From NCBI RefSeq assembly GCF_017873815.1, contig NZ_JAGGKQ010000027.1:1-38835 (forward strand): DNA of 38,835 nt. Reading direction: 5' to 3'. Source of the stretch: Halorubrum alkaliphilum (GTDB taxonomy: Archaea; Halobacteriota; Halobacteria; Halobacteriales; Haloferacaceae). Position 1 is the stretch's first letter, and each line of letters starts with the position of its first letter. Of this stretch, positions 671 through 35,463 are shown piece by piece. The notes under the pieces are model-generated. The model had not been told where the DNA came from and searched no databases. It saw only the letters and a list, made by a program, of their open reading frames with translations. A program made the translations under genes and the position numbers.

Positions 671-1561
671 ATGAACGTCCCGCGTAGCGAACTCCTCACG
701 CAATTACGGGCGCTCGACGAGTACGAATTCGAGAAGTTGATCGCAGACATCTGGAAGTACAGAGGATGGGACACCACCGTCACAGATCAATCCAGAGACG
801 GCGGCATCGACGTGATCGCCAGAAAGGACCTCCCGTTCGACCAAAAGCAACTCATCCAAGCCAAACGGTACGCCAAGGACAACAAGATCCGCCTCAAGCA
901 TGTCCAGCAGTACAGCAGCCTCTATCTGGACAAGAGCCCGGACCGTGACGTCGACGCCGATGTCGTCGCGCTTGTGACGACCAGCAATCTCACCCAGCCC
1001 GCTCGCGAGAAGGCGGCCGAACACAATCTCCGGATTGTCGACGGAGAGAAGCTCACACAGATGATCGTCGAGTGGGACCTCTCGGAGATCATCTCCGACT
1101 ATATCGATCCCGACGCCGAGTCGGAGTCGGCGTTTCACGACGATATCGACACCTCCGTCGAAACGTACGAGGGCTCACGCAATTGGGCGATGGTCGAAGA
1201 ATTCAACGGGATGACAATCTCCTCAAGTGAGGATATGAAACTCACCGCCACCGTCGACGAGACACTGGCGTACACGGTTCACCACGGCCAGTCCTACCAG
1301 AACAACCTCGAAGAACGACGAAACATCCACTATCTCGACGGGCTCGATGACGAACAACTTGACCGGCTCAAGTATATCGCCAACGACCTCGGGATGCGAT
1401 TCTTGCTCGGGGACAGGCCAAACGAATGGAAAATCTACGACAAGGGCGAGGGGCCGATTGACCCCCATCGAACGGTCGAGATCGGAATGCGGATTTTGAA
1501 CGGCGTCTTCGGATCGGCGTTCGGTGATGCCGACATCGATGTCGCAGTCGGCAACCGATAG
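671..1561 (+). CDS. Mrr-type restriction endonuclease (type IV-like)
   Basis: A 296-residue protein. Residues about 15-120 match the Mrr_cat fold: YEFEKLIADIW, then GW, then RDGGIDVIA, then LIQAKRY. In PD-(D/E)XK terms D47 and the Q63-A-K65 triad are the catalytic signature, with Glu19/21 as the helix acid. Family members cleave modified (often methylated) or foreign DNA. Residues about 120-296 form a separate domain with no recognisable motif, perhaps for target recognition. It heads the plus-strand accessory cluster and is followed after 30 bases by a gene carrying the shared leader element. A defence role is inferred; the modification it might recognise is unknown. The transglycosylase-like gene 2.2 kb downstream raises the possibility of a link with 7-deazaguanine DNA. 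Confidence 0.85.
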   Translation: MNVPRSELLTQLRALDEYEFEKLIADIWKYRGWDTTVTDQSRDGGIDVIARKDLPFDQKQLIQAKRYAKDNKIRLKHVQQYSSLYLDKSPDRDVDADVVALVTTSNLTQPAREKAAEHNLRIVDGEKLTQMIVEWDLSEIISDYIDPDAESESAFHDDIDTSVETYEGSRNWAMVEEFNGMTISSSEDMKLTATVDETLAYTVHHGQSYQNNLEERRNIHYLDGLDDEQLDRLKYIANDLGMRFLLGDRPNEWKIYDKGEGPIDPHRTVEIGMRILNGVFGSAFGDADIDVAVGNR

Positions 1562-6203: not shown

Positions 6204-7130
6204 ATGAACAGCCTTTCACAGCACATCGCAGACGACGACGACCGAACCCGCATCGCGTCGCGTTCGGATATCGACGTGTTCGTTCCGAAACTCGATGACT
6301 CTCGCTACGTGTCGGATCTGGCGGGCGACTATTGGCCATACCGGTCGGTCACTCTCGAACAGGCGTGTGAACTACCAAAGGCAGTCGAACGAACGCGCCG
6401 CCGGACACAGACACTCCGACTCGTCGACAATCGACCACCGGGAAGCAACTTCCCGTTGGACCTCTTCGAGACGGCCAACAACGCTCATGTCGACGAGGTG
6501 CTCCCGGCGAGTTACACTGGGACGGCGAGAGACGCGATCGCGGACGCGGTTCGGCTGTACTCCAACTACGATTTCCAGACAGAGCCGACGCTCATCATCC
6601 CGGTCGTCCCGCCGTTCGAAATGACCGGAGCGTGTATCAAGCATCTCCTGTACGAAACCGACAGACCCAGCGGGCTGAAGTCGATCAACAACCCGACCGA
6701 CTTCGCCATCCGTGGGCTCTCCTCGCGAACACAGAGTTACGAACAGTTCAAAGAGATCCTCATGACGATCGAGAGCGTCCTCGAGGGTGGCGTCAATGTA
6801 AACATCCACGCCCCCCATGTGAGTGTCGACCTCATCCGAATCGTTCGCAACCACAGCGGGCTCATCAACTCCGTGACGCTCCCCCACGACGCAGCAGGGC
6901 TCGCAACCACCGAATCGACATCGTATCTCTCAGCGAAAGGCGCGGAGAATCTCACAGCCGACTCGTGTCCGTTGGTCCAACTCGCTGGCGAGTTGAGTCT
7001 GCTCACGAGCGACTTGATCGACGACGACCGGGTGGCGGCCGCACTCGCCGAGTCGAGCATCCCAGACCTCGCACCGGAAACGCCGAAGCCGGACGCCACA
7101 GGAGTCGAACGTCAGTCGACATTCTCGTGA
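6204..7130 (+). CDS. Putative catalytically inactive TGT/DpdA-like paralogue
   Basis: A 308-residue protein that follows the same pattern as the enzyme at 3752-4882. LRLVDNRPPGS (D75) lines up with IIDSGF, VDEVLPASYTG with ADYIIPNDTVN, and TLIIPVVPPFEM with TVIVPLQPNHAL. DFAIRGLSS lines up with HFALGGMKN, NIHAPHVSVDLIRIV with VHAFGVGSSRVLIEA, and LINSVTLPHD with LLQSVDFSTP. The key acids are lost: Ser103 replaces D115 and Thr225 replaces the nucleophile D235, and the DSG pocket has become DNR. The pair recalls the catalytic/non-catalytic heterodimer of eukaryotic TGT (QTRT1/QTRT2). This is inference from manual alignment; structure prediction would settle it. Confidence 0.5.
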   Translation: MNSLSQHIADDDDRTRIASRSDIDVFVPKLDDSRYVSDLAGDYWPYRSVTLEQACELPKAVERTRRRTQTLRLVDNRPPGSNFPLDLFETANNAHVDEVLPASYTGTARDAIADAVRLYSNYDFQTEPTLIIPVVPPFEMTGACIKHLLYETDRPSGLKSINNPTDFAIRGLSSRTQSYEQFKEILMTIESVLEGGVNVNIHAPHVSVDLIRIVRNHSGLINSVTLPHDAAGLATTESTSYLSAKGAENLTADSCPLVQLAGELSLLTSDLIDDDRVAAALAESSIPDLAPETPKPDATGVERQSTFS

Positions 7131-7170
7131 AGACACCGCGAAGACACACGACCCAAAACACCAGAATCCT

Positions 7171-7481
7171 ATGACAGACGACACCGATGAGACCTCGTTC
7201 ACGCTCCACGTTCGCCACGAAGGATACCACGCTGACCAATTCACTCCACACACGCAGATCAACCGGTTTTACCTCGTCGGCTCGGGGACACCATCTGCGG
7301 AACGGCTCGTCGAGACACATCTCTACGCGATCGCAGACGCTGTTATCGGTGACAAACACAGTCTGTCGGACGTCCTACTCCGTGGGATCATCACCGATAT
7401 CGGGAATCCACTCGATATCCAAGTGGTGGACAAAGAGACGTACGCCGACCACGACGGAGCCACGACCTTCGGCCCCCACCT
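7171..7481 (+). pseudogene. 5' part of an unknown gene split by the TnpB element
   Basis: Codes for about 104 residues (MTDDTDETSFTLHV... to TTFGPHL) before the sequence runs into the left end of the insertion sequence. The open frame continues to 7638, but those codons belong to the element. Joining this part to 8877-9078 restores one frame (H-L-G-D-I-W at the junction) and a protein of about 170 residues. The family is not recognised. It lies 40 bases after the transglycosylase-like paralogue and was probably the last or next gene of that operon. Confidence 0.65.
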
Positions 7482-7573
7482 AATACAGCGAGGGAGTCCC
7501 GCCGTTCACGGCGGGCGGGAATCGCGCCATGAGCAACACCCAACCGCAAAACACTATGCTAACCAACTCCCCA

Positions 7574-7586
7574 ATTTATATAAATA
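7574..7586 (+). promoter_or_regulatory. TATA box of tnpB
   Basis: ATTTATATAAATA is centred about 30 bases before the ATG at 7611, a near-ideal haloarchaeal TATA box for a leaderless transcript. Confidence 0.6.
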
Positions 7587-7610
7587 CATAGCACCACATG
7601 TGATGTGTAG

Positions 7611-8834
7611 ATGGAGCTTCAACGTACCGCTGTCGTGAAACTCTCCGTTCCCAACGACCGCCGGGACGACCTGAAGGAAACAATGGATACCTTCAGGAAC
7701 GCCGCCCAGCGGTTCGCTGATCGAGGATGGGAGGGCAACAACGACGGGTACGTGATTACCTCTCGCTCCCAGCTTCAACCATACCTCTACGACGACATCC
7801 GAGACGAAACCGGATTGCACTCTGACCTCTGTGTTGCTGCGGTCAACCATGCCGCCCATGCACTTCGTGGCGTCGTTGATCGCATGAAAGAGAGTGAGAA
7901 AGTTTCCAAGCCGGTGTTCACGTCGAACACGACCGTTTACAATACCAGTGCAATCAGCTATTTTGATGGGTATTGTACGCTTGCCGCCTACGGCAGTGGT
8001 CGTGTAAAAGCCGAATACGTCTATCCAGACGATTCCATTCAGGCTGAGTACATGGAATCAGACGAATGGGACAAACAGGGGGCGAAGCTCCGATACGACC
8101 AGCAGACAGATACCTACTACCTCCACGTCTCAGTCAAGCAGGAACGTGACGACACGCAGGAAGAAGCCGAGGGCCGAACAGTCCTTGGCGTAGATCGCAA
8201 CGTGGACGGGTATCTCGCTGTGACCAGCTCCGGTGCGTTCATCGGTAACGCAGACCTGTTGAACCACAAACGCCGTGAATACGAACGCCGACGCGGCAAC
8301 CTACAACAGACCGGAACGCGATCAGCCCATCTCACAATCCAGTCGATTGGTGATCGCTTCGCCAATTGGAGCGAGAACTATCTACACAATGTGTCGAAAG
8401 AGGTAGTTACTGAGGCTGTCGCCAACGGGTGTAAGACGATTGTACTGGAAGACTTAGAGAATATCCGAGAAGCGGTATCGAATCTCTCAAAGTTCCAGCA
8501 GTGGGCGTTTCGAGAGCTATCGCGGAAGATAACCTACAAGGCGAAAGCTGAAGGAATCACTGTTGAAGTGGTGAATCCAGCCTACACAAGCCAGCAGTGT
8601 AGTCATACCGAGTGTGGGTTCACACATGAGGATAACCGCGACGGCGATGAGTTTGTGTGTCAGAAGTGCGGCAAAGAGCTACACAGCGACTACAACGCGG
8701 CGCGAAACATAGCAGCGCGGTATCTCCGGAATCGGCGTAAGTCTGGTTCCGGAGGGGCAACCAATCACCTTGCCCTGAAGTCAGGAACAGTGAATGGGAG
8801 CGGCGATTTCACGCCCACCGTATCACGCGGGTAG
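7611..8834 (+). CDS. tnpB: TnpB RNA-guided endonuclease
   Basis: A 407-residue, apparently intact TnpB. RuvC-I is LGVDRNVDGYLAV, RuvC-II is IVLEDLENIRE, and RuvC-III is HSDYNAARNIAAR, so all three catalytic acids are present. Between II and III lies a four-Cys zinc finger (QQCSHTEC ... CQKCG). The N-terminal helical segment (residues 1-150) is the usual recognition and wedge region. TnpB proteins, guided by an RNA copied from the element's right end, cut DNA at the donor site and favour retention of the element; they are the ancestors of Cas12. The C-terminus is rich in Gly and Ser. The reading frame overlaps the start of the right-end RNA region. Confidence 0.92.
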   Translation: MELQRTAVVKLSVPNDRRDDLKETMDTFRNAAQRFADRGWEGNNDGYVITSRSQLQPYLYDDIRDETGLHSDLCVAAVNHAAHALRGVVDRMKESEKVSKPVFTSNTTVYNTSAISYFDGYCTLAAYGSGRVKAEYVYPDDSIQAEYMESDEWDKQGAKLRYDQQTDTYYLHVSVKQERDDTQEEAEGRTVLGVDRNVDGYLAVTSSGAFIGNADLLNHKRREYERRRGNLQQTGTRSAHLTIQSIGDRFANWSENYLHNVSKEVVTEAVANGCKTIVLEDLENIREAVSNLSKFQQWAFRELSRKITYKAKAEGITVEVVNPAYTSQQCSHTECGFTHEDNRDGDEFVCQKCGKELHSDYNAARNIAARYLRNRRKSGSGGATNHLALKSGTVNGSGDFTPTVSRG

Positions 8835-17661: not shown

Positions 17662-18357
17662 ATGCACACTCGTTTACGGCCAACGGTAGAGATGCCCGAT
17701 CTCACCCCGGGAGTCACCCTCGTTGACGTTGACGACGACCTCGGCGTCACGCCTGTGCAAGCGCTGCTGCTCGATCAGGTACTCGGCGGCGACGGACCGG
17801 CGTTTTGGGTCGATGGCGCAAACCGAGCGAACACCACACGACTCCGAAAACTCGCGCCCGCCGACCGCGTCCTCGACCGGATCGAGGTCGCCCGCGGGTT
17901 CACGGCTCACCAGCACACGTCGCTCCTCGATCGACTCGCCGGCCGTCTCGACGCTCGGGGATCGCCCTCAACCGTCGTTGTGACCGGTTTGGACGGGATG
18001 TATCGAGGCGCCGATATCGCTGACGAGCTGGCCGAGCAAATGTTCATTCAGGCGATCGCGTCGGTCGCGCGGGTTGCCCGTGTACATGACGTGCCGGTTA
18101 TCGTCACTCGGTGTCGTGAGGACGAGTTCTCGCGGCCGCTCCGGCGCGCTGCGGTGACACATCTCGAATGTCGGGCGACGCCGTTCGGCCCGCGGTTCGA
18201 GGACGCAGCCGGCGAGATGGAGACGCTCGTGTACCACACGGGCGACGGGTGGATGCAGACGACGCTCGCGTATTGGCGAGAGGTGCTCAAACACCGTGCC
18301 CGGATGCACGAGGCGTCGACACTCGAACGCGCTGCCGGCCCCATAGGGGTTCAGTAA
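17662..18357 (+). CDS. RecA/RadA-like protein lacking Walker A, polymerase-associated
   Basis: A 231-residue protein. Its layout is that of a RadA/RadB core: LTPGVTLVDVDDDLGVTPVQALLLDQVL where a P-loop strand and helix should be, FWVDGANRANTTRL, RVLDRIEVARGFTAHQH, then the Walker-B-like STVVVTGLDGMYR and VPVIVTR. The GxxxxGK[ST] Walker A is missing (DDDLGVTPVQ), so ATP binding is doubtful. The end resembles the RadA C-terminal strands (GDGWMQTTLAYW). It overlaps the next gene by TAATG, and a B-family polymerase follows 1.1 kb downstream with a matching promoter. I infer a structural role in a repair or replication complex with that polymerase. Confidence 0.65.
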   Translation: MHTRLRPTVEMPDLTPGVTLVDVDDDLGVTPVQALLLDQVLGGDGPAFWVDGANRANTTRLRKLAPADRVLDRIEVARGFTAHQHTSLLDRLAGRLDARGSPSTVVVTGLDGMYRGADIADELAEQMFIQAIASVARVARVHDVPVIVTRCREDEFSRPLRRAAVTHLECRATPFGPRFEDAAGEMETLVYHTGDGWMQTTLAYWREVLKHRARMHEASTLERAAGPIGVQ

Positions 18358-18599
18358 TGGGTCGAACGAATCCGACCTACCGCGATCAGTTGAGCGCGAT
18401 CGAAGACGAGTGGGGTGCGTACCGCCGGGCGCTCCGCCGCGAGGATCAGGATATCTTCGATCACCTGTTCGTGTACGCTCGCGACCACGCCGACGCTGCT
18501 GGGAGTCTCAACCACGCCGACCCGCTGGCGCCGATGTGGATGGCGATCGCGATCGAGCAGGAGAAGCGGATTACCGAGTTGGAGGAGCAGGTAGAGTGA
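18357..18599 (+). CDS. Small acidic helical protein coupled to the RecA-like gene
   Basis: An 80-residue protein: YRDQLSAIEDEWGAYRRALRREDQDIFDHLFVYARDHADAAGSLNHADPLAPMWMAIAIEQEKRITELEEQVE. It is entirely helical with a C-terminal coiled coil. The ATG at 18357 overlaps the upstream stop (TAATG), so it is part of the same operon. Similar short proteins accompany the RecA-like and polymerase genes of haloarchaea, as far as I recall. It is likely a subunit of that complex; no catalytic motif is present. Confidence 0.65.
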   Translation: MGRTNPTYRDQLSAIEDEWGAYRRALRREDQDIFDHLFVYARDHADAAGSLNHADPLAPMWMAIAIEQEKRITELEEQVE

Positions 18600-23909: not shown

Positions 23910-24362
23910 TCAGCCGCCGGCATTTCGATCTGTTTGGAGCATTTGCGTCTGTCGGGTCTCTAAGAGTTCGCGCTTCCCGACCGACGCGTCGAGCGGGGCC
24001 ATGACCAGCAGGCCGGTCGCGGCGTGACACGGAAGGCCGTCACCGGCGCCGAAGCCCGTCCCCGTTGTCGGTACCTGTACGCGGTACCCATTCCCTGAGT
24101 GTTGGATCCGGGTGTCGATTCCACGGTAGATCGACGCCGTCTCCGTGGCTGCGAGTGCGACTAGCTCAGCGCGGTCGGCTAACGGCACGCGGTCGGTATC
24201 CCGGTCGATCACGAGCAGTAGATCGTCGAACCCGTACGCGACGACGTCGGCACGGTGTGTCGTGTCGCCGTTGGCGCCCTCCTCGACGAGACCGGCGCTG
24301 CGAGCGGGTTTGGTCACTTGTAGCGCGAGGCCGTCGCCCGTGTTTGTCAGTTGATTCGGCAT
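23910..24362 (-). CDS. Hypothetical protein, 150 aa, last gene of a minus-strand operon
   Basis: Starts MPNQLTNTGDGLALQVTKPA and continues with short beta stretches (DDLLLVIDRDTDRVPL, GNGYRVQVPTTGTGFGAGDGLP). It looks soluble and weakly acidic; no catalytic motif or transmembrane segment is seen. The start codon is directly next to the upstream gene's stop (24360-24365). I do not recognise the family. Its N-terminal strand pattern is reminiscent of AbrB-type barrels, but that is not more than a suggestion. Confidence 0.6.
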   Translation of the reverse strand: MPNQLTNTGDGLALQVTKPARSAGLVEEGANGDTTHRADVVAYGFDDLLLVIDRDTDRVPLADRAELVALAATETASIYRGIDTRIQHSGNGYRVQVPTTGTGFGAGDGLPCHAATGLLVMAPLDASVGKRELLETRQTQMLQTDRNAGG

Positions 24363-24557
24363 CTACTCGGTCACCTCTCGTGCGCGCGCCCAGATCCACG
24401 CGTCGTCGTGGTCGTCGAGGACGGTCGGGTCGAACCCACAGAGATCGCGGAGGTAGTGTGACCAGAACTCCCTGTCAAACGACTCAGGCACGTTATGAGC
24501 GGCCTCGGCGTCGCCGAAGCGGTCTTGATGCGTCGCCGGCGGCGGAACAGCAGTCAT
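24363..24557 (-). CDS. Small hypothetical protein, 64 aa
   Basis: Begins MTAVPPPATHQDRFGDAEAA and ends HDDAWIWARAREVTE. The start ATG at 24557 overlaps the upstream stop by ATGA, which fixes it over an in-frame ATG further upstream at 24608. It is acidic and aromatic-rich (FDREFWSHYLRDLCGFDP). No family is recognised. Confidence 0.55.
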   Translation of the reverse strand: MTAVPPPATHQDRFGDAEAAHNVPESFDREFWSHYLRDLCGFDPTVLDDHDDAWIWARAREVTE

Positions 24558-24931
24558 TTGTCGGCCTCCTCCACCGTCGCGATCGTTCCGAGAACCGGGT
24601 ACTCCCATCGGATAATATCGTTGTCCTCGACGTGCTGGACCCTAGCGTGTAGCGTGGGCGTTCCCCAGCTGTCATTCGTCTCGACAATACCGATTTCGCC
24701 CAGATCCGTCGCATGTCGATCCGGTTTGAGGTGTAACTCGGGTGCCTCGAAAAACTCGATCGTACACTGAAGATACCCCTTGCCCTCTTCGTCCTCAGCA
24801 GCAGACTCGTACTCGAAATCGGTCGTCGTTACCTCGAACGTGCGCTCGTCATCGAGCGTGACACGGTACGTATGGGACTCTGAGCGGGCCTCAAAGAGTG
24901 TTTCAGCTGCGTCGCCAGTTATGTCGTTCAT
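24554..24931 (-). CDS. Hypothetical protein, 125 aa
   Basis: An acidic, beta-rich protein (ESHTYRVTLDDERTFEVTTTDFEYESA ... GYLQCTIEFFEAPELHLKPDR ... IRWEYPVLGTIATVEE). It overlaps both neighbours by four bases, at 24928-24931 and 24554-24557, so it is firmly inside a four-gene operon. No family is recognised. Confidence 0.65.
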   Translation of the reverse strand: MNDITGDAAETLFEARSESHTYRVTLDDERTFEVTTTDFEYESAAEDEEGKGYLQCTIEFFEAPELHLKPDRHATDLGEIGIVETNDSWGTPTLHARVQHVEDNDIIRWEYPVLGTIATVEEADK

Positions 24932-25242
24932 GTGTGGGCACCTGCGCGCGGCGAGTCTCGCTGTGCGTACACGTTACTATAATATAGTAACGTGAAACCA
25001 CTCCGGTGCCCGTTCATGTACCCAGTACCGAACCAGCAGTATGAGAGGTGTGCGGGATAGAACGCGTCGCGCTCACCAACGACCTCGCGGATAGTGATGT
25101 GCCGGGTGCAGTCGTGCCGACCGTGCGTCCCACTGAGTAGGCAGTACCCATTGAGCTCACCACCGGCAGTGTAGGGCTTGTAGCGCTTGTGCTCGCATGG
25201 ACGTCGTCCCGAGTCAGTAGTTGATAAGCTCGATCGTAACAA
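24928..25242 (-). CDS. Cys/His-rich hypothetical protein, first gene of the operon
   Basis: The frame reads PCEHKRYKPYTAGGELNGYC, LLSGTHGRHDCTRHITIREV and FYPAHLSYCWFGTGYMNGH, a conserved-looking Cys/His pattern that may bind zinc. Codon third positions are mostly G or C, and the stop overlaps the next gene start as ATGA (24928-24931), both supporting a real gene. The start is uncertain: the first usable codon is TTG at 25242, with no clear promoter, so the 5' end may be lost. The 25-base palindrome at 24970-24994 lies inside its last codons. Confidence 0.5.
   Translation of the reverse strand: MLRSSLSTTDSGRRPCEHKRYKPYTAGGELNGYCLLSGTHGRHDCTRHITIREVVGERDAFYPAHLSYCWFGTGYMNGHRSGFTLLYYSNVYAQRDSPRAGAHT
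24970..24994. promoter_or_regulatory. Perfect 25-base palindrome with TATA core
   Basis: Arms CACGTTACTATA and TATAGTAACGTG surround a single A. The core contains TATAATATA, usable as a TATA box on either strand, 39 bases upstream of the ATG of the 125-residue protein at 24931. A dimeric regulator binding here would cover the box. It also lies inside the 3' end of the preceding gene. Confidence 0.6.
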
Positions 25243-25415
25243 TTCGTGTCCGATCTATGTATTGAACAACTCCTCTTGGCCGAGTCGATCGGGCGTGAAC
25301 GAGAAACCACGGTCAGCGTAGTAGAGCGCGAGACTGTCACTCGGACGAGATATCGAACACAGGAGCGACAATAAGTAGATATGACAGCGACCACGTCGTA
25401 AGGACCCCACTCCCT

Positions 25416-25437
25416 CCCCCCGTCATCGATGTGTAAA
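25416..25437 (-). repeat. Origin recognition box (ORB) 1
   Basis: On the minus strand TTTACACATCGATGAC followed by six G. It is a perfect match to the consensus of this window. The G-string points to the left, away from the AT-rich region. Confidence 0.8.
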
Positions 25438-25751
25438 TGCTCTAGCGATGGGGAAGGGTGAAGACACGTTAGAGTCCGAAATAGCCAAAAACACCGTAAA
25501 ATCGCTGTAGATGTATCTGAACATTCAGAAATCAAATCACCTTTAGTTTGATAAAGATTTATATAAGTGCCATATAAACAATACCCGCAATGGATCAATT
25601 TGTAATGGTAAGAGAAGGTAACTTCGATAAACTAGTTAACGATTCTATTTCTGATTATATCAACTGTTCTTCTTGAAAACAGCGTCTATAGCGTCTAAAA
25701 CAGCAATCTATGGATTAGTGTTTAGTTTTTCCACCCTCCACTGTTTTTTGC

Positions 25752-25772
25752 TTACACATCGATGACGGGGGG
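25752..25772 (+). repeat. ORB 2
   Basis: TTACACATCGATGAC followed by six G, reading to the right. Opposite in orientation to ORB 1 across the AT-rich region. Confidence 0.8.
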
Positions 25773-25887
25773 AGGGTGTTTGACACCCCTGACAAACACG
25801 GGCGATTCTTGTAGGTATTGCTGGTCAGTGGAACGGCAATCACTCCTACATGATATCTAGCCAAACCTCTACGGGATCAGCTTCAAT

Positions 25888-25909
25888 TTTACACATCGAA
25901 GACGGGGGG
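25888..25909 (+). repeat. ORB 3
   Basis: TTTACACATCGAAGAC followed by six G, one mismatch from ORB 1, 27 bases from the end of orc1/cdc6. Confidence 0.8.
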
Positions 25910-25935
25910 TGTGCTTCCGAGAGAACCTTTTGAAA

Positions 25936-27393
25936 CTAACTGTGGAATTCCTTTAGCTGGGCGTTGACGACAGACTGAAGAAGAGCTTCTTGTTCGGCAA
26001 TTGACCCTAGACGAGTGTCGTCGACGATTCGATTCATCATCGCTTCAGGATCTCCTGTGAACGTGAATTCCATGTACATTCCGCCACCACGACCTCGACC
26101 TTTCCGAGAAGTGGAGATAAGACCATACGTGGAGAGCTCTTTGACATACTTGACGTAGGTTTCCCGTGTCATTTGGTCAGCATCGATCTCATCAGTAACC
26201 CATTGGTAAACTTTGAAACCAACCGGGCTTGGCACGGAACTCCCAGACCAATTGGAGAAATTGGCGACAGAAGCGGTTGCGTAGAGAGAGATCTTCTTTT
26301 GCGTAGTCAATCCCTCGATTAACTTTAGCGACCGATCTTTATCGATCTCCTCCTGCGATTCTCGAACGTGTTCTTCACGAACTTCCCCGTCACCACATTC
26401 ATCTGCGAGATCACCGGCACCGCGAAACAGGTCGATTGCCTTTCGTGCGTCTCCATGGCTTTGGGCTGCAAATGCTGAAACAAGCGGTAGCACATCGTCA
26501 CTTAAGCCATCGTCTCGAAAGGCATCACGTCGGTTATCGAGTATTTGACGGAGCTGATTGGCATCATAATCCGGAAAATAGATGTCTCGAGGATTGAATG
26601 AACTCTCGGCACGACCGTCGATATTCTCCATGAATTTCGGGTCATTGGTCAGAGCTGCGACCGAGACTTGTCCTTCGATTTCGTTTGTATTACTGGCTCT
26701 AGACAGTTGATAGAGTAGCTTTGAGTACGCAGGTTCTTCGCTCGCTCGCCGGCCTACCAGAAGATCGATCTCGTCGATGATGAAAATGACTGAGTCGTAG
26801 TGTTCGTTGATGAGTTCATACAAGCGCCGATACTTACGCTTGGTCGACACTCCTGTCTCCGGAACGCCGGCATCTACACCGATGTCCTTTGCGACGGTTT
26901 GGACCAGTTCGAATACAGCTTGATCGAGGGTATTGATCGGCTGGCAGTTAATGTCGACAACACCGAAACGTTCGCCTTTGGACTGACAGAGCTCAATGAT
27001 TTGCTGTGTGACTGCACCAATAATAAGCGATTTTCCTGTTCCGGCCGGGCCGTAAAGCAACATATTCGGAGGCCGATTTCCTTGAAGGGTCGGCTTCAGA
27101 AACGAAACGACGGACTCGAGTTGCTCATCGCGTCCGACGATTCGCTCTTCATCAATAATTGTGTCTGGCTCGACAAGGTCTCGATTGACAAAAACTGATG
27201 CTTTTCCCTCATCGTCGAGCATATCCCGGATTGACCGGTGTTTACTGTCCTCACTGTCTTCAGCGATTTCTTTGCCGTGTTCCCGTAATGAGTGATTTGT
27301 AATAGTCTCTCCAACGTCCTCTCCGTCAGCTCGGGAACGAGCCCCATCGTCGGGGATGGATTGGTCCGATCCATCCTGATCACGACCGGCCAT
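25936..27393 (-). CDS. orc1/cdc6: Orc1/Cdc6 replication initiator
   Basis: A 485-residue protein. Walker A is GPAGTGKS (115-122), Walker B is IFIIDEID (203-210), and the sensor region (VAALTNDPKFMENID) and sensor 2 (HGDARKAIDLFRGA) follow. The C-terminus is the winged helix that binds ORBs (SLYATASVANFSNW ... TYVKYVKELSTYGLISTSRKGRGRGG). An acidic N-terminal extension of about 70 residues is added to the AAA+ core, common in haloarchaeal plasmid initiators. It recognises the boxes on both sides of its gene and loads MCM. The start is the first ATG after a GGAGGT site, and ORBs 1-3 lie downstream, 4-7 upstream. Confidence 0.95.
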   Translation of the reverse strand: MAGRDQDGSDQSIPDDGARSRADGEDVGETITNHSLREHGKEIAEDSEDSKHRSIRDMLDDEGKASVFVNRDLVEPDTIIDEERIVGRDEQLESVVSFLKPTLQGNRPPNMLLYGPAGTGKSLIIGAVTQQIIELCQSKGERFGVVDINCQPINTLDQAVFELVQTVAKDIGVDAGVPETGVSTKRKYRRLYELINEHYDSVIFIIDEIDLLVGRRASEEPAYSKLLYQLSRASNTNEIEGQVSVAALTNDPKFMENIDGRAESSFNPRDIYFPDYDANQLRQILDNRRDAFRDDGLSDDVLPLVSAFAAQSHGDARKAIDLFRGAGDLADECGDGEVREEHVRESQEEIDKDRSLKLIEGLTTQKKISLYATASVANFSNWSGSSVPSPVGFKVYQWVTDEIDADQMTRETYVKYVKELSTYGLISTSRKGRGRGGGMYMEFTFTGDPEAMMNRIVDDTRLGSIAEQEALLQSVVNAQLKEFHS

Positions 27394-27535
27394 ACGAATA
27401 CTCTACCTCCGAGTGATTAAAAACCTTCACCCCACATCGATGTTTATCTAGCCGGTATACTCGTTCTTCCACCTATATTCGGATAGATCTTGGTTACCCA
27501 TTTAGACCACCACCGAAGTACATCTCACGAATCCC

Positions 27536-27556
27536 CCCCCCGTGATCGATGTGTAA
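27536..27556 (-). repeat. ORB 4
   Basis: On the minus strand TTACACATCGATCAC followed by six or more G. Upstream of orc1/cdc6. Confidence 0.75.
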
Positions 27557-27651
27557 CGAGATCTACTGCGCTTTCTTGTGTTTCTGACAATTCAATAATT
27601 GATCTTGCCAACTCTACTGTTCTTAATCGACGTGTCATCTGGTTATCCAAC

Positions 27652-27671
27652 GCCCCGTCATCGAAGTGTAA
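27652..27671 (-). repeat. ORB 5
   Basis: On the minus strand TTACACTTCGATGAC followed by GGGGC, a shortened G-string. Confidence 0.65.
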
Positions 27672-27705: not shown

Positions 27706-27746
27706 AATCGGTTTAGTCTCTCGCTCTTCCGACTGTCAGCTATCAG

Positions 27747-27768
27747 TTTACACTTCGATTACGGGGGG
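27747..27768 (+). repeat. ORB 7
   Basis: TTTACACTTCGATTAC followed by six G, opposite in orientation to ORBs 4-6. Confidence 0.75.
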
Positions 27769-27797
27769 TATACCAATAGAAATCAGACACTCTGAGT

Positions 27798-35052: not shown

Positions 35053-35231
35053 CGATTATGATGAGTCCAGCACACGTGTAAGCATGTTGGAATTGTGTAC
35101 CATCTCCAGTGAAAGCACCACTCTTTGCAGCATATATGGGTGTGGTGGCCAAGATCTTGGTGAGTGTACCCATTGTATCCAGCACGGCTCCAAGAACATA
35201 TCACTAGTTGAGGATCTCAACAGAACCATTC

Positions 35232-35442
35232 TGCTCTGTTGAATCCGATGACGGCACCGTGATCACGATCGCTGAAGACGCGGTTATCTCGTTTTTCGTT
35301 GTCGATGATTGGATCGATCCACCCAGCGATCTCGATCCGTGCGCTCCCTGGCAAGAGTCCATCTCTACATTCTCTCGGCAGCGGTCCTGAATCGTGTACA
35401 GAATGACCCGATCCCGCTGCCCTCTGTGGATTCAACAGAGCA
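35232..35442. mobile_element. 211-base MITE-like element with 15-base terminal repeats
   Basis: TGCTCTGTTGAATCC (35232-35246) and GGATTCAACAGAGCA (35428-35442) are perfect inverted repeats. The interior holds no intact gene; an open antisense frame and a sense frame with ITIAEDAVISFFVVDDWIDP exist and may be a leftover piece of transposase or host DNA. The ends resemble those of the solitary IS ends at 22108 and 35464. No target duplication is clear. Confidence 0.6.
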
Positions 35443-35463
35443 CAGTAGTTAGCATGAACAGTT

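Follow-up and report, generated by a model that had tools for sequence, protein, structure and literature searches.

The window analysed here, a stretch of 38,835 nt, is one entire contig of a Halorubrum alkaliphilum genome of 3.1 Mb in 64 contigs. Its genes include those for an Orc1/Cdc6 protein, a B-family DNA polymerase, a histidine kinase and a ParA-type ATPase, and it has the appearance of a whole or partial plasmid (Table 1). A block comprising a Cdc6-like gene, a GNAT acetyltransferase gene, a palindromic site and a 125-aa gene is common to the window and the vesicle plasmid pR1SE, while none of the pR1SE structural genes was found in the window. An Mrr-type restriction endonuclease and a TnpB-like protein are also encoded, no tRNA was detected, and towards the right-hand end lie 41-base inverted repeats, 78% complementary and 145 bases apart. 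Repeats of TTACACATCGATGACGGGGGG flank the Orc1/Cdc6 gene and resemble the origin-recognition repeats found at haloarchaeal replication origins.

Table 1. Coordinates of the features discussed; positions are those of the window except in the last line.
Feature	Position	Strand	Basis or remark
Mrr-type restriction endonuclease	671-1561		
TnpB-like protein	7611-8834		
Tyrosine-recombinase-like protein, 433 aa	14238-15539	minus	
125-aa gene, function unassigned	24554-24931	minus	ORF, relatives, model
ORF formally spanning the palindrome	24928-25242	minus	coding score -4.8
GC-rich leader, palindrome to start codon	24932-24969	minus	similar in aligned relatives, by eye
Extended dyad, which the window fits	24968-24996		logo of 44 sites and window sequence
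Perfect palindrome, 12-base arms, one-base centre	24970-24994		sequence and shuffles
Core of conserved site GTTACTAT-NNN-ATAGTAAC, 0 mismatches	24973-24991		motif matching
Acetyltransferase (GNAT) remnant, 37 residues, 54% identity to pR1SE	25003-25113	minus	within ORF 24928-25242
Probable deletion junction	25004-25010		7-base overlap of two BLAST blocks against pR1SE2
ORF to the right of the palindrome	25014-25598	minus	noncoding by codon usage
TTACACATCGATGACGGGGGG repeats	25409-25436, 25752-25779, 25877-25910, 27531-27556, 27646-27671, 27736-27769	both orientations	
Orc1/Cdc6 replication initiator, first gene past the GNAT remnant, an order shared with pR1SE	25936-27393	minus	gene neighbourhood
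41-base inverted repeats	35224-35264, 35410-35450		
RTGTAGTACTACAY copies, plasmid NZ_CP101158.1	6840, 6956, 12289, 17822, 24148, 60571		some in gaps behind genes

The palindrome, which the first-pass annotation had recognized, reads CACGTTACTATAATATAGTAACGTG, with an AT-rich core, CTATAATATAG, and its arms are the longest perfect ones within the window. That annotation also held that such arms are rarely found by chance. Taken by itself the palindrome is only moderately improbable, arms of at least 12 bases having appeared in one of 60 order-2 Markov shuffles of the window, and it is the recurrence of the site on Halorubrum plasmids that lends the statement its force. The 19-base core has no second match in the window at up to three mismatches (0.00 expected), and the genome to which the window belongs contains it only once.

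The annotation further described the palindrome as lying within the coding end of a gene and shortly before the gene that follows, and read it as a possible internal promoter and operator of an operon. The first of these statements is correct only in form: a minus-strand ORF does span the palindrome, but its coding score is negative and it retains only a remnant of a GNAT gene. A second minus-strand ORF stops short of the palindrome on its right, and gene calling placed no gene across it, so that the palindrome is in practice intergenic. The downstream neighbour is real, the 125-aa gene being coding by codon usage, with a start codon 38 nt from the palindrome and a predicted protein model that is mostly beta (mean pLDDT 71). 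An internal promoter within an operon finds no support, since the site occupies a gap beside a decayed gene and is not flanked by live operon genes on both sides. The GC-rich leader that separates the palindrome from the start codon looks by eye much alike in seven aligned elements, including that of genome G364, where a different gene follows.

Comparison with related plasmids suggests how this arrangement arose. In pR1SE the gene order is Cdc6-like, GNAT, winged helix, site, 125-aa gene, and in both pR1SE and pR1SE2 the equivalent gap is flanked by the 125-aa gene and, on the opposite side, by a gene for a 75-aa winged-helix protein. In a BLAST comparison with pR1SE2, one block extends from the 125-aa gene across the palindrome as far as about position 25010, and the match then jumps to the GNAT gene; the window lacks the 75-aa gene of pR1SE2 and the greater part of its GNAT gene. 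No relative of the 75-aa protein was found elsewhere in the window's genome at E 0.01. Because the gene is missing both between the BLAST blocks and from the rest of the genome, the window copy is probably an orphan operator, left in front of the 125-aa gene after deletion of its regulator gene. That the copy is still perfect suggests either that the gene was lost very recently or that the site has another reader.

The site, a dyad of the form GTTACTAT-NNN-ATAGTAAC, is a conserved, multi-copy feature of mobile elements in a single genus, Halorubrum. Ten copies of the core at up to two mismatches are present on pR1SE2 (163 kb), all between 8.2 and 88.6 kb, and six in the 50,000 of 50,329 bases covered of pR1SE, all at 3.4-33.3 kb, a region that carries core genes shared with related plasmids. 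At no more than one mismatch the site occurs in 13 of 52 Halorubrum genomes and its reversed control in none of the 52; G033 and G219 have eight copies each, G364 has four, and each of the remaining ten genomes has one or two. Allowing two mismatches gave nine copies in the 140 kb of contig G033:C2 examined, nine in four G219 contigs and four in the parts of G364 examined. In genomes with one or two copies, several of the sites fall within segments that have relatives in G033 or pR1SE2, and they may be remnants. Across the 44 sites collected, conservation is symmetric out to positions ±14 (Y at -14, W at -11 and C at -10, each mirrored) around a free central base. The 125-aa gene tracks the site, being present in five of the 13 site-bearing genomes vs none of the other 39, and in all five genomes that have the gene, among the 52, the dyad is kept upstream of it, 42-82 nt from the 19-base core in the relatives. 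The operator reading of the first-pass annotation, for which a lack of conservation in related sequences would have been damaging, thus survives.

When 392 genomes of the order were searched for exact matches to a looser core, six had one, every one of them belonging to the 32 genomes of the genus itself (reversed control, one), and a scan of genome contigs returned 59 stretches, 16 from Halorubrum and 43 scattered across many taxa, below the roughly 60 expected, an estimate from the size of the collection. In viral contigs the full 25-mer was absent, a 14-base core matched at least 120 stretches, which we take as chance, and an 18-base core matched one; phages gave no DNA match to positions 24000-26500. 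Three related Natrialbaceae plasmids carry no site at up to two mismatches, and a de novo search for repeated palindromes recovered no GTTACTAT sites from them. A different repeated palindrome, RTGTAGTACTACAY, occurs in six copies on the related Natronosalvus amylolyticus plasmid NZ_CP101158.1 and is possibly that plasmid's own counterpart of the site. Clusters of short GGTACC-centred repeats, possibly the iterons of a replication origin, lie near one site copy in G033:C2 (around 42486-42582) and in G219:C51 (around 18285-18393). We found no description of the palindromic site in literature on the motif and the plasmid, including the portions consulted of PMC10818511, PMC11790492, PMC5120986 and PMC2194725; the repeats sought in PMC10818511, according to the same portions, were those over 25 bp.

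Conservation of the dyad is base by base, with no compensatory change, and we therefore read it as the DNA target of a symmetric, dimeric protein rather than as an RNA hairpin. Eight core pairs in the 44 sites showed none, as against 18 cells with broken pairing and five with G-U pairs; sites had been collected by sequence at up to two mismatches, a threshold that would admit one compensatory change per site. An RNA hairpin element was accordingly rejected, and positions 24000-26000 matched no known RNA family at E ≤1.

Which protein reads the site is suggested by the gene that is missing from the window. In all five loci found, when pR1SE and pR1SE2 are counted as one, the winged-helix gene is preceded by a copy of the site at a distance of 69-71 nt; the product has 75 aa in four of these, and the fifth, in G343, looks frameshifted. 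The gene is present in four of the 392 genomes of the order, and equally four of the 52 in the genus (a weak match in G110, inside a 375-residue frame, was not counted). It occurs in four of 13 site-bearing genomes vs none of 39 site-free ones (p 0.003), and in all three genomes with at least four sites vs one of the 49 others (p 2e-4), both p-values treating related genomes as independent. The nine site-bearing genomes that lack it, the window's own among them, all have one or two sites. When pR1SE proteins were compared, the 75-aa protein alone matched all four multi-site elements and none of the three Natrialbaceae plasmids. A tyrosine-recombinase-like gene associates with the sites across genomes more strongly than the winged-helix gene does, a point to which we return below.

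The predicted model of a relative from H. saccharovorum, built from two sequences, has three helices and a two-stranded beta wing (mean pLDDT 79). Its best PDB matches in Foldseek are winged-helix domains, none below E 0.001, and the structure of AspA with DNA (5k5q) follows as a weak match at rank 30, E 0.08. In Pfam the protein has only sub-threshold matches, no family reaching its cut-off; no match to ParB or to phage proteins was found, and no relatives in viral contigs. From co-occurrence and position we consider the 75-aa winged-helix protein the likely cognate of the site.

Position statistics were compiled for 32 sites on multi-site elements, with pR1SE omitted as a duplicate of pR1SE2, the window and the elements with one or two sites left aside, and orthologous sites in different elements counted apart; outside pR1SE2, genes were called with a purpose-written caller that found 96 of the 107 annotated 3' ends of pR1SE2, a figure obtained on its own training set and hence no independent control. 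The sites are mostly intergenic (27 of 32 vs 8.1 expected), and 21 lie no more than 50 nt after a stop codon, where 3.3-3.6 were expected and 5,000 random draws gave at most 10. In the three largest elements this gene-end share is 9/10, 5/9 and 3/6. On pR1SE2 and in G033 the parA operon ends with a site, 16-17 nt past the last gene.

These positions bear directly on the rival explanations. A chance palindrome, for which the single shuffle with equally long arms leaves some room, is refuted by the conservation described above: the site is kept upstream of the 125-aa gene wherever that gene occurs in the genus and is multi-copy on plasmids, with a reversed control of zero, and we give coincidence practically no weight. 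Plain promoter operators or elements, the kind of site that the first-pass annotation proposed, would each regulate the next downstream gene over a distance of 90-260 nt, by way of unmapped promoters and long leaders. The AT-rich core agrees with this, as do the 14 of 32 sites that have a start codon at such a distance, where 6.6 were expected (p 0.002). An upstream-operator role is thus possible for some of the 32. However, start codons show no excess at distances below 90 nt (6 vs 6.4 expected), distances to stop and to start are confounded in tandem gaps, and nine gene-end sites lack any start codon in the nearest 400 nt (1.4 expected). Because most of the other copies are at gene ends, a plain promoter-operator role fits poorly, and as a general account we think it rather unlikely. 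The nine sites just mentioned, the concentration behind stop codons and the several sites between convergent genes would rather suit a terminator, either an RNA hairpin or a protein roadblock to RNA polymerase at operon ends, from which the window copy would have been displaced. Against it stand the copies in divergent gaps, which are not at gene ends, and, for the hairpin version, the lack of compensatory changes. T-tracts are not enriched either: runs of at least five T followed none of 14 tandem and none of six convergent site-bearing ends, compared with 0.14 of 102 tandem and 0.07 of 55 convergent ends without a site. An intrinsic, U-tract archaeal terminator was rejected on this result, from a small sample of 20 ends, and termination, of which the roadblock version is the form that survives these comparisons, appears to us an unlikely main role.

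The strong association with the recombinase-like gene raises the further idea of a recombination site. The 433-aa protein encoded in the window has a weak PHROG integrase match, its pR1SE2 relative is annotated as a site-specific recombinase, and close relatives, found in 22 of the 52 genomes, overlap strongly with the site (12 of 13 site-bearing genomes vs 10 of 39 others); at two loci the stop codon of the recombinase is followed, after 15-16 nt, by a site. Yet no site at up to three mismatches was found within 2 kb downstream of 22 further recombinase copies or of the window's, and pR1SE has its six sites although its annotated gene list holds no counterpart of the 433-aa protein (6330-7631 on pR1SE2). 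The 3-base centre of the dyad is, moreover, below the crossover spacer usual for tyrosine recombinases, 6-8 bases. By the 2-kb search the site is not tied to the recombinase gene, and we rejected a tyrosine-recombinase site as very improbable.

The explanation that we favour, and judge to be probably correct, is that a plasmid-encoded dimeric DNA-binding protein, most likely the 75-aa winged helix, binds the palindrome plasmid-wide, and that the window copy is an orphan. A symmetric dimer would grip the dyad. In the ancestral layout the site would have lain between the divergent regulator gene and the 125-aa gene, and the bound protein would control the regulator gene by autoregulation, the 125-aa gene, or both; an operator function is well supported by the conserved placement of the dyad before both genes. 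The same protein may occupy the further copies on the plasmid, between transcription units and mostly just past the last stop codon, forming a plasmid-wide nucleoprotein system for coordinated silencing, plasmid maintenance or both. The deletion in the window would then have removed the regulator gene and left the site before the 125-aa gene. Repression or insulation, partition and vesicle loading are roles that sequence does not distinguish.

A wider and distinctly more tentative proposal, which we rate as doubtful, is that the sites and the 75-aa protein constitute an undescribed plasmid-organising system of vesicle-borne plasmids, in which bound operon-end sites would insulate transcription units from one another or act as roadblocks between them, and would also mark the DNA for partition or vesicle loading. 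If so, the protein would control its own gene from the same site. Plasmid pR1SE spreads among haloarchaeal cells in vesicles containing its own proteins (PMC10818511), and in the portions of that paper drawn on here we found no explanation of how its genes are coordinated or its DNA selected. A conserved multi-copy site with a candidate protein would offer a direct handle on both questions, and for a regulator of the winged-helix type, placement chiefly at gene ends would be unusual.

Among known systems, the repetition of a short operator over one plasmid, with ten copies on pR1SE2 and six on pR1SE, recalls KorB and its OB operators on plasmid RK2, some of which lie 45 to over 1,000 bp from promoters and mediate long-range silencing, as described in PMC11790492. 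KorB is, however, a ParB-type CTP clamp, unlike the putative 75-aa winged-helix cognate with no ParB match, and most copies of the present site hug gene ends. The bacterial parS sites, as generally described, are likewise conserved palindromes repeated on one replicon, but need a ParB-type protein, and no such cognate was identified here. AspA of the archaeal plasmid pNOB8 is a small winged-helix protein with a 23-bp palindrome upstream of its own gene (PMC5120986). The site lies likewise upstream of the 75-aa gene, whose product is modelled as a winged helix and gives the weak structural match to AspA noted above. On pNOB8, according to the same source, aspA overlaps parB, which overlaps parA, whereas the winged-helix gene of pR1SE2 (88.3-88.6 kb) is not organised with parA or parB, one parA lying some 68 kb off (19.6-20.7 kb) and a second at 142.7-143.5 kb. 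The account of pNOB8 in the part of PMC5120986 used here describes one site, in contrast to the ten on pR1SE2. SegB of Sulfolobus chromosomes, compared by description only, shares dimer-bound palindromes upstream of a segregation gene, but that part of PMC5120986 describes no more than two sites, close to the operon. We do not file the system under KorB/OB or AspA, because the candidate is not of ParB type and is encoded apart from parA and parB; by analogy, it appears to work like a plasmid-wide operator system whose layout resembles that of KorB/OB or AspA and yet is distinct from both.
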